In this document: piece after piece, positions 2-3,235 of the stretch | Layout: each line of letters starts with the position of its first letter | How positions within the stretch are numbered: position 1 is the first letter of the stretch | Assembly (NCBI GenBank): GCA_013298565.1 | Contig: JAAFIC010000027.1 | Coordinates: forward strand, 1-37,336 | Reading direction: 5' to 3' | DNA: 37,336 nt | From: Alphaproteobacteria bacterium | GTDB taxonomy: Bacteria; Pseudomonadota; Alphaproteobacteria; Elsterales; Elsteraceae | The notes under the pieces: model-generated | Told to the model about the DNA's origin: nothing | Seen by the model: only the letters and a program-made list of their open reading frames with translations | Database searches by the model: none | Translations under genes and position numbers: made by a program

Positions 2-70
2 GGCGCGGTGCGCCGCACGGAGAGCTTCGTGGTGCTGCGGACGTATTTGGAGCGGGGGATTAGTCCTTAA
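2..70 (+). CDS. 3' end of a gene entering from the left, possibly an Lrp/AsnC-type regulator
   Basis: A reading frame is open from base 2 and ends at TAA. It encodes about 22 residues, ending in RTESFVVLRTYLERGISP. The pattern (R-T-E-x-hydrophobic-V-L-R-T) resembles the last strand of Lrp/AsnC ligand-binding domains, but the fragment is too short to assign with any certainty. Its stop codon overlaps the stop of the convergent chromate transporter gene by 3 bases (TTAA). No start or domain is visible in the window. Confidence 0.4.
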   Translation, partial: GAVRRTESFVVLRTYLERGISP

Positions 71-1434
71 CCGCCGAGAAGCAGCGTCACCGCCAACCCT
101 AACGCTGCACACCCTGCCAGCACTTCCCCCGTGCCGCGTTTGAAGCGAAACAGCGCCACTATCGCCGCCACCGTCAACGCCAATGCCGCGCTGTTAAGGC
201 TGCTCAAGTCTGGCACGTCCAGATGCAGCCCGTAGCCGGACCAAGGGCGAACGCTGGCGAACAGCACGTGCAGGGCAAACCAGACCGAGAGGTTGAGGAT
301 AACGCCGACCACCGCAGCAGTAATCGCGGTCAACGCTGCCGACAGCGGCTTATGACCGCGCAAGGCTTCCACATAGGGCGCACCGAGGAAGATCCACAGG
401 AAGCAGGGCACGAACGTCACCCAGGTCGTCAACAATCCGCCCAAAGTTGCGGCCAGCAGCGGGTGCAGGCCGCCCGCATCGCGCCACGCGCCCATGAAGC
501 CGACGAACTGCGTGACCATAATCAACGGCCCTGGCGTGGTTTCGGCCATGCCGAGGCCGTCGAGCATTTCGCCGGGTTGAAGCCAGCCGTAAGTGGCGAC
601 GGCTTCCTGCGCCACATAGGCCAGCACGGCATAGGCCCCGCCAAAGGTGACGACCGCCATTTTCGAGAAGAATACGGCAATCGTGCTGAACACATTCTCC
701 GGCCCGAGCAGCAGGACCAGCGCCAGCACTGGCCCCAACCACAGCGCACCGAAAATCGTGGCGATCCGCAGCGACCAGCTTAGAGAGGGGCGGGCGTGAT
801 CGGGAACGCCGTCGCCCAAGCGGCTGTCGGCATCACTGAGGCCCGGCCCGCTGCTGCCATGCCCGGCGCTCCCATCGAAGGCGGCCCATCCCAGCTTACC
901 GCCGAAAAAGCCAATGATCCCAGCCGTCACGATAATCAGCGGAAACGGCAGGTCGAAGGCGTGAATGGCGATGAAGGACGTGCCCGCCAGCCCCCATAAT
1001 GTGCGGTTCCGCAAAGCGCGCTTCCCCACCCGCAACAAGGCTTGCAACACGACCGCCAGCACAGCGGCTTTTAGACCGAAGAACAATCCTTCTACGGCAC
1101 TTAGGTGCCCCGCTAACACATAGAGCCAGCTTAGGGCCATAATGGCGATCATACCGGGGAAGATGAACAGTAACCCTGCCACCAAGCCGCCCGCTGTGCG
1201 GTGCATCAGCCACCCGATGTAGGTGGCGAGTTGTTGGGCTTCCGGCCCTGGCAGCAACATGCAGTAGTTGAGCGCGTGGAGAAACCGCGTCTCGCCGATC
1301 CAGCGTTTTTCATCGACAAGAATCCGGTGCATCACGGCGATTTGCGCCGCAGGCCCGCCGAAGCTGAGGGAGGCGATTCGCACCCACACCCAAAAAGCCT
1401 CGCGGAAGGAGACGGGAGAAGACATGAGGCTCAC
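67..1434 (-). CDS. chrA: chromate transporter ChrA (two-domain CHR family)
   Basis: Inner-membrane protein of 455 residues, the usual length for a bidomain ChrA that expels chromate. The N-terminal half carries FGGPAAQIAVMH, the LNYCMLLPGPEAQQLATYIG signature and several hydrophobic helices. The C-terminal half repeats the plan with TFGGAYAVLAYV and GLGMAETTPGPLIMVTQFVG. A polar linker of about 30 residues lies near position 200. The start chosen is a GTG at 1432-1434 that overlaps the upstream chrB stop (GTGA), implying translational coupling; an in-frame ATG lies three codons later. Chromate specificity is inferred from family and from the chrB neighbour; sulfate is the natural competing anion. 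Confidence 0.93.
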   Translation of the reverse strand: MSLMSSPVSFREAFWVWVRIASLSFGGPAAQIAVMHRILVDEKRWIGETRFLHALNYCMLLPGPEAQQLATYIGWLMHRTAGGLVAGLLFIFPGMIAIMALSWLYVLAGHLSAVEGLFFGLKAAVLAVVLQALLRVGKRALRNRTLWGLAGTSFIAIHAFDLPFPLIIVTAGIIGFFGGKLGWAAFDGSAGHGSSGPGLSDADSRLGDGVPDHARPSLSWSLRIATIFGALWLGPVLALVLLLGPENVFSTIAVFFSKMAVVTFGGAYAVLAYVAQEAVATYGWLQPGEMLDGLGMAETTPGPLIMVTQFVGFMGAWRDAGGLHPLLAATLGGLLTTWVTFVPCFLWIFLGAPYVEALRGHKPLSAALTAITAAVVGVILNLSVWFALHVLFASVRPWSGYGLHLDVPDLSSLNSAALALTVAAIVALFRFKRGTGEVLAGCAALGLAVTLLLGG

Positions 1435-2243
1435 GCCCTTTCAGCCGGCCAGGTGTGGGTCTCGCCCACGGCATCCCGGCACCAACGGTAAAACGCATCA
1501 TAGAGGGGTAGGCTGGCGCTGAGTTGTGCCAGATCGTCCCGGTACATGCGCGAAAAGCCTAAAGAGGCGGCGAGCAACCCTGCGGCCTGCGGCGCAAGAT
1601 CCAGCGCCGCCGTATCCGCGCCGCGAATGATGGTCGCCAATCGGTCCAGCGCCGGGGAGGTTAGCCCGAACTCTTCCAGCATCGTATCGAAGGTGCAGCG
1701 CTCCGCCCGGTGGCTCCAGAACGTGCCTTCAATGTCGAAAGGCGTCGCACCAAAGCGCTCGGCCACCGCAGTGACTTGGCTTGCATCGACGAACAGAAAC
1801 ACCGCCGCGCGGTCGATAAAACGGCGAATAAGCCAAGGGCAGGCAATGCGGTCGATTTTAGGGCGGGCGCGTGTGACCCACAGCGTGCGCCCTGTGCTAT
1901 CGGCGGGCGGCAGGGGGAGTGTCTTGACTAGCAGATGCCCCCCCGCGCGCCACGCCTCGAACCCGCCTTCCAGCGTTTCCGCCGCGACGCCGAGGTGCCG
2001 AAGCCAGGCTGCTACGCCTTCCGACAGCTTCAAACCGCGCTGGCAACTGACGATCACCGATTGGCCGATAAACTCAGCCCCCCAGGTGGCAACGGAAAAC
2101 GGATCGCGCTGCACGGAGGCGGGGATTAGCCGAGGGTCGGCCTCAAAATCTTCGGGAAGGCGCACATCCAGCAGCACAGGGCAGGTGGGCAAACCCACCA
2201 ACCGCGACAGTTGCGCTGGGGTAATTTCAGTATTCGACGGCAT
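1431..2243 (-). CDS. chrB: rhodanese-ChrB fusion, chromate resistance protein
   Basis: The 270-residue protein joins two domains. Residues about 1-105 are rhodanese-like (LLDVRLPEDFEADPR, then VIVSCQRGLKLSEG with the active-site-type C-x-x-G-x-x-x-S loop). The rest is a ChrB C-terminal domain (RARPKIDRIACPWLIRRFID, FDIEGTFWSHRAERCTFDTM, IIRGADT). ChrB proteins are linked to chromate sensing and resistance; the rhodanese may handle sulfur chemistry, which is inference. I chose the ATG at 2241-2243 because AAGGTGG sits 6 bases upstream; the same frame is open further upstream to about 2630, but that part is low-complexity and crosses a terminator. It is coupled to chrA by a 4-base overlap. Confidence 0.87.
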   Translation of the reverse strand: MPSNTEITPAQLSRLVGLPTCPVLLDVRLPEDFEADPRLIPASVQRDPFSVATWGAEFIGQSVIVSCQRGLKLSEGVAAWLRHLGVAAETLEGGFEAWRAGGHLLVKTLPLPPADSTGRTLWVTRARPKIDRIACPWLIRRFIDRAAVFLFVDASQVTAVAERFGATPFDIEGTFWSHRAERCTFDTMLEEFGLTSPALDRLATIIRGADTAALDLAPQAAGLLAASLGFSRMYRDDLAQLSASLPLYDAFYRWCRDAVGETHTWPAERA

Positions 2244-2428
2244 AACGTCCACCTTACCATAAGAGCTCGGACGCGAACTTCGGCCTGCCGCCTCACGGGG
2301 CCTCGCAGAACCCCTTAAAAGCGAGGCAACCACAGCCCACGCCCCTCTGTCAATCGGCGCATCGCATCTCTGGCCCCTTTCCCGAAGCCAGCCGAAAGGG
2401 CCGAGGAGGGGCTTGAAGGGTAACGCCG
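2244..2428. other. leader region upstream of chrB
   Basis: No convincing gene. On the minus strand it holds a perfect -35-like TTGACA (complement of 2348-2353) without a clear -10. A hairpin lies further upstream, with arms 2372-2381 and 2394-2402 (GGCCCTTTC paired with GAAAGGGGCC). The chrBA promoter presumably lies here, because a strong terminator (2429-2463) separates chrB from the gene upstream. Confidence 0.4.
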
Positions 2429-2463
2429 AAAAAAAGCCCCGCCCCATAAAGGGACGGGGTTTT
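2429..2463 (-). terminator. rho-independent terminator, minus strand
   Basis: On the minus strand CCCCGTCCC, a TTTAT loop and GGGGCGGGG form a GC-rich stem followed at once by CTTTTTTT. The single non-Watson-Crick pair is a G-U wobble on the minus strand but a C-A mismatch on the plus strand. Together with the T tract this sets the orientation as minus. Confidence 0.8.
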
Positions 2464-2500
2464 AAGGGAAGGGTTCGAGGTGGTCCGAGGACGACGCTCG
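2429..2500 (-). ncRNA. candidate Fur-regulated small RNA
   Basis: A predicted minus-strand transcript of about 70 nt starts just after the promoter at 2507-2535 and ends in the terminator at 2429-2463. Its 5' half has little internal pairing and is rich in CCUC, CCACCUC and CCCUUCCC runs. Such runs are typical of trans-acting sRNAs that pair with Shine-Dalgarno sequences. The architecture (iron-box promoter, short single-stranded seed, strong terminator) matches RyhB/PrrF-type sRNAs by layout only; I see no sequence homology. It could instead be an attenuated leader for chrBA. Confidence 0.4.
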
Positions 2501-2506
2501 CTGAGG

Positions 2507-2559
2507 AAGATATTGAGAGTGAATCGCATTGGCAAGATAAATTTTGCGATTCATTCTCA
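2507..2559 (-). promoter_or_regulatory. promoter with paired Fur-like boxes
   Basis: On the minus strand TTGCCA (complement of 2530-2535) and TATCTT (complement of 2507-2512) are 17 bp apart. One Fur-like 7-1-7 box, TGCGATTCACTCTCA (complement of 2514-2528), fills the spacer. A second, TGAGAATGAATCGCA (complement of 2545-2559), lies just upstream of the -35. The boxes are inverted relative to each other with centres about 31 bp apart, roughly three helical turns. Fur assignment is by resemblance; Irr or another Fur-family regulator is possible. Confidence 0.45.
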
Positions 2560-2566
2560 GTTGCAT

Positions 2567-3235
2567 TTAGCGGTCGTACCGCTCTTCCTCCCACGGGTCG
2601 CCTTCGTTGTGGTAGCCGCGATTTTCCCAATAGCCGGGTTTATCGTCGGCACAGAACTCGATACGGGTCAGCCATTTGGCCGATTTCCAGAAGTAATATT
2701 TCGGCACGACCAGCCGCACTGGCCCACCATGTTCGGGGGTAAGCGGCTCGCCTTCCCAAGAATGGGCCAGCACGACATCTTTTGCGCCGAAATGATCGAG
2801 GCGTAGATTGGTCGTATAGCCATCGGCACTGTAGAGCATGACGTGACGGGCCTGCGGGAGCGGTTGCACAAGGTCCAGCAGATGCCGCGCCGACACGCCC
2901 TCCCAATGGTTATCGAAGCGCGACCACGCGGTAACGCAGTGAATGTCTGAGAGGAATTTTTGCTGCGGTTGAGCGGCAAAGCTCTCCCACGTCAACGTCT
3001 GCGGTGCGTTCACCAATCCGTCGATCTGAAGCTGCCAAGTGTCGGCGTTCAGGCGCGGCTTAAGCCCCAAATCGAGCACCGGCCAGTTTTTCACCTCATG
3101 CTGCCCCGGCGGCAAGCGCTGACTAAGCGGAGTGCCGCGCTGCCCGGTTAGCAGCCTGCCTTCTTTGGCCCATTCTTGTTTACGATCAATCAGCTTGGTG
3201 CGGATTGATCCCCATAGGCTATCATCTTTGCTCAT
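2567..3235 (-). CDS. sulfite oxidase-like molybdopterin oxidoreductase
   Basis: A 222-residue soluble protein consisting of a single oxidoreductase molybdopterin-binding domain of the SUOX/YuiH type. The conserved cysteine that would bind molybdenum is C100 in SDIHCVTAWSRFDNHWEGV. Other family features are YSADGYTTNL, EPLTPEHGGPVRLVVP and YFWKSAKW. There is no signal peptide, haem or dimerisation domain, so it is not a complete sulfite oxidase or MsrP. Substrate and electron acceptor are unknown. The start is firm: GGAGGG lies 7 bases upstream of the ATG. It reads away from the LysE-type exporter. A terminator about 100 bp downstream and an intervening promoter separate it from chrB. Confidence 0.85.
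   Translation of the reverse strand: MSKDDSLWGSIRTKLIDRKQEWAKEGRLLTGQRGTPLSQRLPPGQHEVKNWPVLDLGLKPRLNADTWQLQIDGLVNAPQTLTWESFAAQPQQKFLSDIHCVTAWSRFDNHWEGVSARHLLDLVQPLPQARHVMLYSADGYTTNLRLDHFGAKDVVLAHSWEGEPLTPEHGGPVRLVVPKYYFWKSAKWLTRIEFCADDKPGYWENRGYHNEGDPWEEERYDR

Follow-up and report, generated by a model that had tools for sequence, protein, structure and literature searches.

A candidate Fur-repressed, iron-sparing small RNA gene in the alphaproteobacterial genus Elstera

A 37,336-nt stretch of DNA (the window), which makes up contig 47 of a 3.02-Mb genome of the genus Elstera, a freshwater bacterium, contains a compact minus-strand unit that is probably best explained as a stand-alone gene for a Fur-repressed, iron-sparing small RNA (sRNA) of about 73 nt (Table 1). 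In the proposed mechanism, Fur would block RNA polymerase when iron is present by sitting on both boxes, of which one lies within the promoter spacer. When iron is scarce, Fur would depart and the RNA would be made up to its own terminator. Probably together with Hfq, the single-stranded C-rich segment of the RNA would then pair with purine-rich Shine-Dalgarno regions, and CCCUUCCC is the segment proposed to pair directly with lutA and coxS. The presumed targets are mRNAs of dispensable iron-sulfur enzymes, namely the lutABC lactate oxidation system and a coxS-type molybdenum hydroxylase, and blocking their translation would spare iron. Such iron sparing through pairing with Fe-S mRNAs is judged reasonably likely. 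Fur-repressed iron-sparing sRNAs are known from gamma- and betaproteobacteria and Firmicutes, and the Elstera sRNA is best read as new by sequence and known by functional kind.

Table 1. Features of the candidate sRNA unit and its surroundings (window coordinates)
Feature	Position	Strand	Remarks
MsrP/sulfite-oxidase-like gene (molybdoenzyme)	2567-3235	-	One flank of the sRNA unit
Distal Fur-type box TGCGATTCATTCTCA, 15 bp, 7-1-7	2545-2559		Upstream of -35
-35 element TTGCCA	2530-2535	-	TTGCCA also in G001, TTGCTA in E. litoralis
Proximal Fur-type box TGAGAGTGAATCGCA, 15 bp	2514-2528		Fills the promoter spacer; kept in G001 and E. litoralis
-10 element TATCTT	2507-2512	-	TATGGT in G001, TATCTT in E. 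litoralis
Predicted sRNA, about 73 nt	2429-2501	-	Start inferred from the -10 element, end from the T tract
5' hairpin CGAG...GUC-CUCG-GAC...CUCG	2476-2500	-	Predicted by folding in both species (window and G001)
C-rich seed CUCGAACCCUUCCCUU	2464-2479	-	Mostly single-stranded; 16/16 identical in G001
Intrinsic terminator	2429-2459	-	9-bp stem (2459-2437) and 7 T (2435-2429)
chrB-a RNA (Rfam RF03078)	2241-2319	-	46.9 bits, above gathering score
Rhodanese(ChrE)-ChrB-like fusion ORF	1431-2243	-	Other flank of the sRNA unit
Chromate transporter gene	67-1434	-	After the ChrE-ChrB-like ORF

The sequence-only reading had described a minus-strand TTGCCA-N17-TATCTT promoter with one Fur-like 7-1-7 box in its spacer and a second, inverted, just upstream, and every one of these elements is present. 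The promoter elements are 17 bp apart, and a scan of 1.4 kb yields this promoter-like site alone, where 0.3 would be expected. The two boxes face opposite ways with a centre-to-centre distance of 31 bp. Comparisons used the window's own genome (G000), a second Elstera species (G001) and E. litoralis (G002); the distal box has the counterpart TGCGAGTCATTCGCA in G001 and a degenerate one, TGCGAGCGATTCGCA, in E. litoralis. A degenerate pattern written from these boxes and their relatives, TGMGANTNANTCKCA, matches the 3.02-Mb genome at these two boxes only, and the reversed control gives 0. By our own arithmetic, chance alone would give about 0.7 matches in a genome of this size, so two matches 31 bp apart are not a chance occurrence. 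The predicted overlap of a Fur box with the promoter is the arrangement that the class of Fur-repressed iron-sparing sRNAs requires.

Downstream of the promoter, the strong intrinsic terminator with a 7-T tract that had been claimed is found, and its G001 counterpart has a 10-bp stem and 7 T. About 1.5 terminator-like sites are expected by chance in such a stretch, so the site alone is unremarkable; its meaning comes from its position and conservation. The predicted sRNA has a fold z-score of -4.5, and no ATG occurs in the predicted transcript ahead of the terminator loop. At the sequence level, the unit is short, non-coding and closed by an intrinsic terminator of its own, as is usual for the class. 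The stretch between promoter and terminator had been called unstructured, which applies only to the 3' part AACCCUUCCCUU, because folding predicts a 5' hairpin in both species and the 5' half is this conserved structure.

Conservation sets the unit apart from its neighbours. G001 has it whole, with boxes, promoter, hairpin, the seed CTCGAACCCTTCCCTT (16/16) and terminator, and a 140-nt block is 79% identical to the window. The neighbouring gene is 56% identical between the two genomes at third codon positions and 54% at fourfold sites. In E. litoralis the boxes and promoter are kept as far as the contig end, which cuts off the sRNA body, so that the body is known in two Elstera species; the closest named match of the window's molybdoenzyme is from E. 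litoralis Dia-1 (89% identity, on a 7,215-bp contig). The sequence-only reading had named a lack of conservation in relatives as one ground for giving it up; within the genus, both boxes and terminator are in fact kept. Outside Elstera, a BLASTn search of 60 relatives found nothing beyond short chance matches. Likewise, profile R1 found no sRNA body outside Elstera among 385 alphaproteobacteria, most of its matches at E 0.003-0.05 looking like chance, and the body model R2, run on 26 loci mostly around related molybdoenzyme genes, returned only its two training sequences.

The surroundings of the unit in G001 bear directly on two competing interpretations. On one of them, the unit is an iron-regulated, attenuated leader of the chr operon, whose promoter drives chrB and whose terminator acts as the switch. 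In the window the unit does lie directly upstream of the chr genes on the same strand, yet in G001 the entire unit adjoins no chr gene and an MFS gene converges on its terminator. Moreover, chrB already has a known leader, the chrB-a RNA, which lies directly 5' of the rhodanese(ChrE)-ChrB-like ORF and the chromate transporter gene. In the Rfam scan of the window, chrB-a alone passes its gathering score, at a position outside the sRNA unit, and the motif is absent at the unit itself. A chr leader is therefore highly improbable, in line with the original view that this is not a chrBA leader. On the other interpretation, the promoter is a chance resemblance and the terminator is that of the molybdoenzyme gene. 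The chance frequency of terminator-like sites speaks for it, but the 140-nt block is far more similar than the fourfold sites of the neighbouring gene, the molybdoenzyme gene of G001 ends more than 400 bp away from the unit, and the genome has no second such box pair; this explanation is hardly credible. Because the unit is kept beside different neighbours in G001 and chrB-a is a separate element, it is neither a chr leader nor a molybdoenzyme tail. A discrete sRNA gene, with a predicted transcript, is judged very likely.

Evidence for the regulator comes from the places where the same box occurs elsewhere. Across eight genomes of the family, TGMGANTNANTCKCA has 16 matches in five (5, 5, 2, 2 and 2), against 0 for the reversed control. 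In G001 the pattern stands ahead of a TonB receptor gene and of mntH, in G007 ahead of a cupredoxin/FTR1 iron-permease operon, and in G002 ahead of a gene for a piuC-like Fe(II)/2OG oxygenase; the window's own genome has a site with one mismatch to the pattern upstream of the same piuC-like gene. A full match is absent from both TonB-receptor loci of that genome. The pattern is an imperfect marker of iron genes: the sites in G006 and G008, and some of those in G002 and G007, are inside genes or before genes without an obvious iron link. The search of 385 alphaproteobacteria with a promoter-plus-body profile also brought up an ABC solute-binding gene in G312 with the box in its promoter spacer (E 8e-5), probably of the iron type by our own reading, Pfam giving solute-binding only, and boxes before bfd in G217.

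Two further box contexts were observed. A Cro/YdaS-like ORF that adjoins an apparent formate dehydrogenase operon in G006 and G008 has a Fur-type box (L117, L123, 1501-1515) about 10 bp ahead of its start. Two Elstera species other than that of the window have a Fur-type box (L126, L120, 1501-1515) ahead of a gene for a 4Fe-4S protein resembling the glutamate synthase small subunit. The Bacillus sRNA FsrA represses gltAB (PMC11257911), and direct Fur control of glutamate synthase in Elstera may merit attention in this light.

The Fur protein of Elstera (L029) has its best match in MgFur of M. gryphiswaldense (4RAZ, 186 bits). The footprinted operator of MgFur is TTAATCGCAACTCATTCGCAATTGC (PMC4506495), which has the half-site CATTCGCA in common with the distal box of G001. 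With the same box before iron-uptake genes in relatives and a Fur protein closest to MgFur, the promoter is judged highly likely to be Fur-controlled, and binding of Fur at the two boxes would be the expected consequence. It is improbable that the same sRNA answers to manganese, through a Mur-type Fur protein, instead of or besides iron. Such a response would fit the box before mntH in G001, the close match of Elstera Fur to a further alphaproteobacterial Fur-family structure (5FD5), and the fact that rhizobial Fur homologues respond to manganese. Against it, the best match of Elstera Fur is MgFur, and most of the recognisable box-linked genes (TonB receptor, FTR1, piuC-like and bfd) are related to iron.

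An hfq gene is present in each of the three Elstera genomes, and the sRNA may depend on its product. G000 and G001 were scanned for complements of the seed, and genome-wide counts are slightly above control (152 vs 131 and 165 vs 132); for the wobble-tolerant seed pattern, genome-wide noise is too high for counting. Of the G000 sites that fit the wobble pattern with no more than one mismatch, two stand just before a clear start codon, and both belong to Fe-S operons. One precedes lutA, which encodes an Fe-S oxidoreductase and is the first gene of lutABC, and the other a coxS-type gene for a 2x[2Fe-2S] subunit, followed by the gene for the molybdenum large subunit. At coxS, G000 and G001 share an identical 16-nt site. 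The lutA ribosome site pairs with the seed in G001 and G002 as well, with differing bases (GGGAAGGGGGG, GGGGAAGGGAA), but such pairing is absent from G003, which belongs to another genus and in which the search found no sRNA. lutA in G000 and coxS were selected by the scan itself, and lutA in the other genomes was looked up afterwards.

Duplex energies were compared with those of 409 sampled genes in G000 and 298 in G001, G002 being ranked against the G001 genes. On this measure lutA ranks 0/409 in G000, 9/298 in G001 and 8/298 in G002, and coxS 1/409 in G000 and 0/298 in G001. When both partners may fold, the ranks are 0/409, 48/298 and 3/298 for lutA in the same order, and 18/409 and 4/298 for coxS. 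Among 3000 shuffled seeds matched in composition, 10 reached the combined energy. The search of the C-rich segment against ribosome sites, which the sequence-only reading had recommended, gives lutA in three species and coxS in two, above most of the background but in part chosen by the scan, beside counts near control and a sodB score at background. As evidence for targets, the complementarity of the seed to the lutA and coxS ribosome sites is suggestive, and repression of these mRNAs would be the predicted outcome.

Two other candidates were rejected. sodB scores no better than background, and its complementarity, like that of ETF-QO, sits in an arm of a short inverted repeat of the 5' UTR in G001. 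These short repeats, TTCCCTT...AAGGGAA, are found in the G001 5' UTRs of ETF-QO (4Fe-4S) and of an Fe-type superoxide dismutase (L165, 1483-1512; L184, 1466-1512), and the seed is complementary to one of their two arms. As a separate observation in G001, the seed pairs over about 15 nt with a livM-like ABC permease gene at its ribosome site and start codon (L200, G001:C29:240926-240941); this permease is not an iron protein.

These data also bear on whether a Fur-controlled sRNA could have another job, with different targets or as an RNA sponge or protein-binding RNA. The complementarity to lutA and coxS would in that case merely follow from the purine-rich nature of Shine-Dalgarno sites. Seed-complement counts near control, a set of best G001 duplexes that includes livM and a lipoprotein gene, neither for an iron protein, and pairing energies that weaken once both partners may fold are all in keeping with such a role. 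It is nevertheless unlikely, given that the two G000 sites before clear start codons both fall in Fe-S operons, that lutA pairing persists in three species despite changed bases and is missing from G003, and that shuffled seeds of matched composition rarely equal the real one. An iron-sparing role through Fe-S mRNAs remains the preferred reading.

Compared with known systems, the candidate would work like the RyhB/PrrF/FsrA/IsrR class. FsrA of Bacillus subtilis negatively regulates lutABC among other iron enzymes (PMC11257911) and is likewise a Fur-repressed iron-sparing sRNA, so that it shares the best-supported target found here. However, it comes from an unrelated bacterium, no sequence homology was seen in the Rfam scan, and it acts with small Fbp proteins (PMC3751524). 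IsrR of Staphylococcus uses C-rich regions that pair with ribosome sites of iron-protein mRNAs (PMC11257911); it is iron-repressed and works as proposed for the Elstera sRNA, but it belongs to a different phylum and has three C-rich regions, whereas the Elstera sRNA has one single-stranded C-rich segment and a CUCG loop. RyhB, PrrF and NrrF are alike in having a Fur box over the promoter, a short RNA, an intrinsic terminator and presumed Hfq use, while the Elstera sRNA is without an Rfam match, and sodB, the classic RyhB target, is unsupported for it. RusT of Caulobacter crescentus is also an iron-starvation sRNA of an alphaproteobacterium, Hfq-bound, but is 118 nt long and controlled by NtrYX rather than Fur (PMC11005374).

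In Rfam, no curated family reaches its gathering score at the sRNA unit. The suhB/mmgR family (RF00519) has a similar layout, a 77-nt model with a small 5' hairpin, a CUCCCU-type single strand and a terminator, and aligns full-length in both the window and G001. With scores of 18.5 bits in the window and 16.1 in G001, far short of the gathering score of 41, the unit is not a member by this test. Anti-hemB (RF02837) reaches 20.7 and 18.8 bits against 49.5, mainly through the terminator. The near-matches to anti-hemB, suhB/mmgR and a betaproteobacterial toxic sRNA were set aside, their scores coming mainly from the terminator.

Searches of the literature brought up no demonstrated Fur-controlled sRNA of an alphaproteobacterium; priority is uncertain because the literature covered is open-access only. 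A paper of 2024 on Caulobacter finds it 'intriguing' that the Fur regulon there has no known sRNA and suggests that the dual role of Fur may make such an sRNA unnecessary in that organism (PMC11005374). In an earlier study of Caulobacter, Fur-repressed sRNA candidates were no more than a speculation. The Elstera sRNA could be the first directly Fur-repressed sRNA of an alphaproteobacterium, independent of RyhB, PrrF and FsrA and converging with FsrA on lutABC, a possibility put forward here only tentatively. If transcription and the response to iron follow the predicted course, the Fur-box sRNA of Elstera would show that this circuit exists in Alphaproteobacteria, and if its targets are FsrA-like, it would provide a clear case of convergence with Bacillus FsrA.
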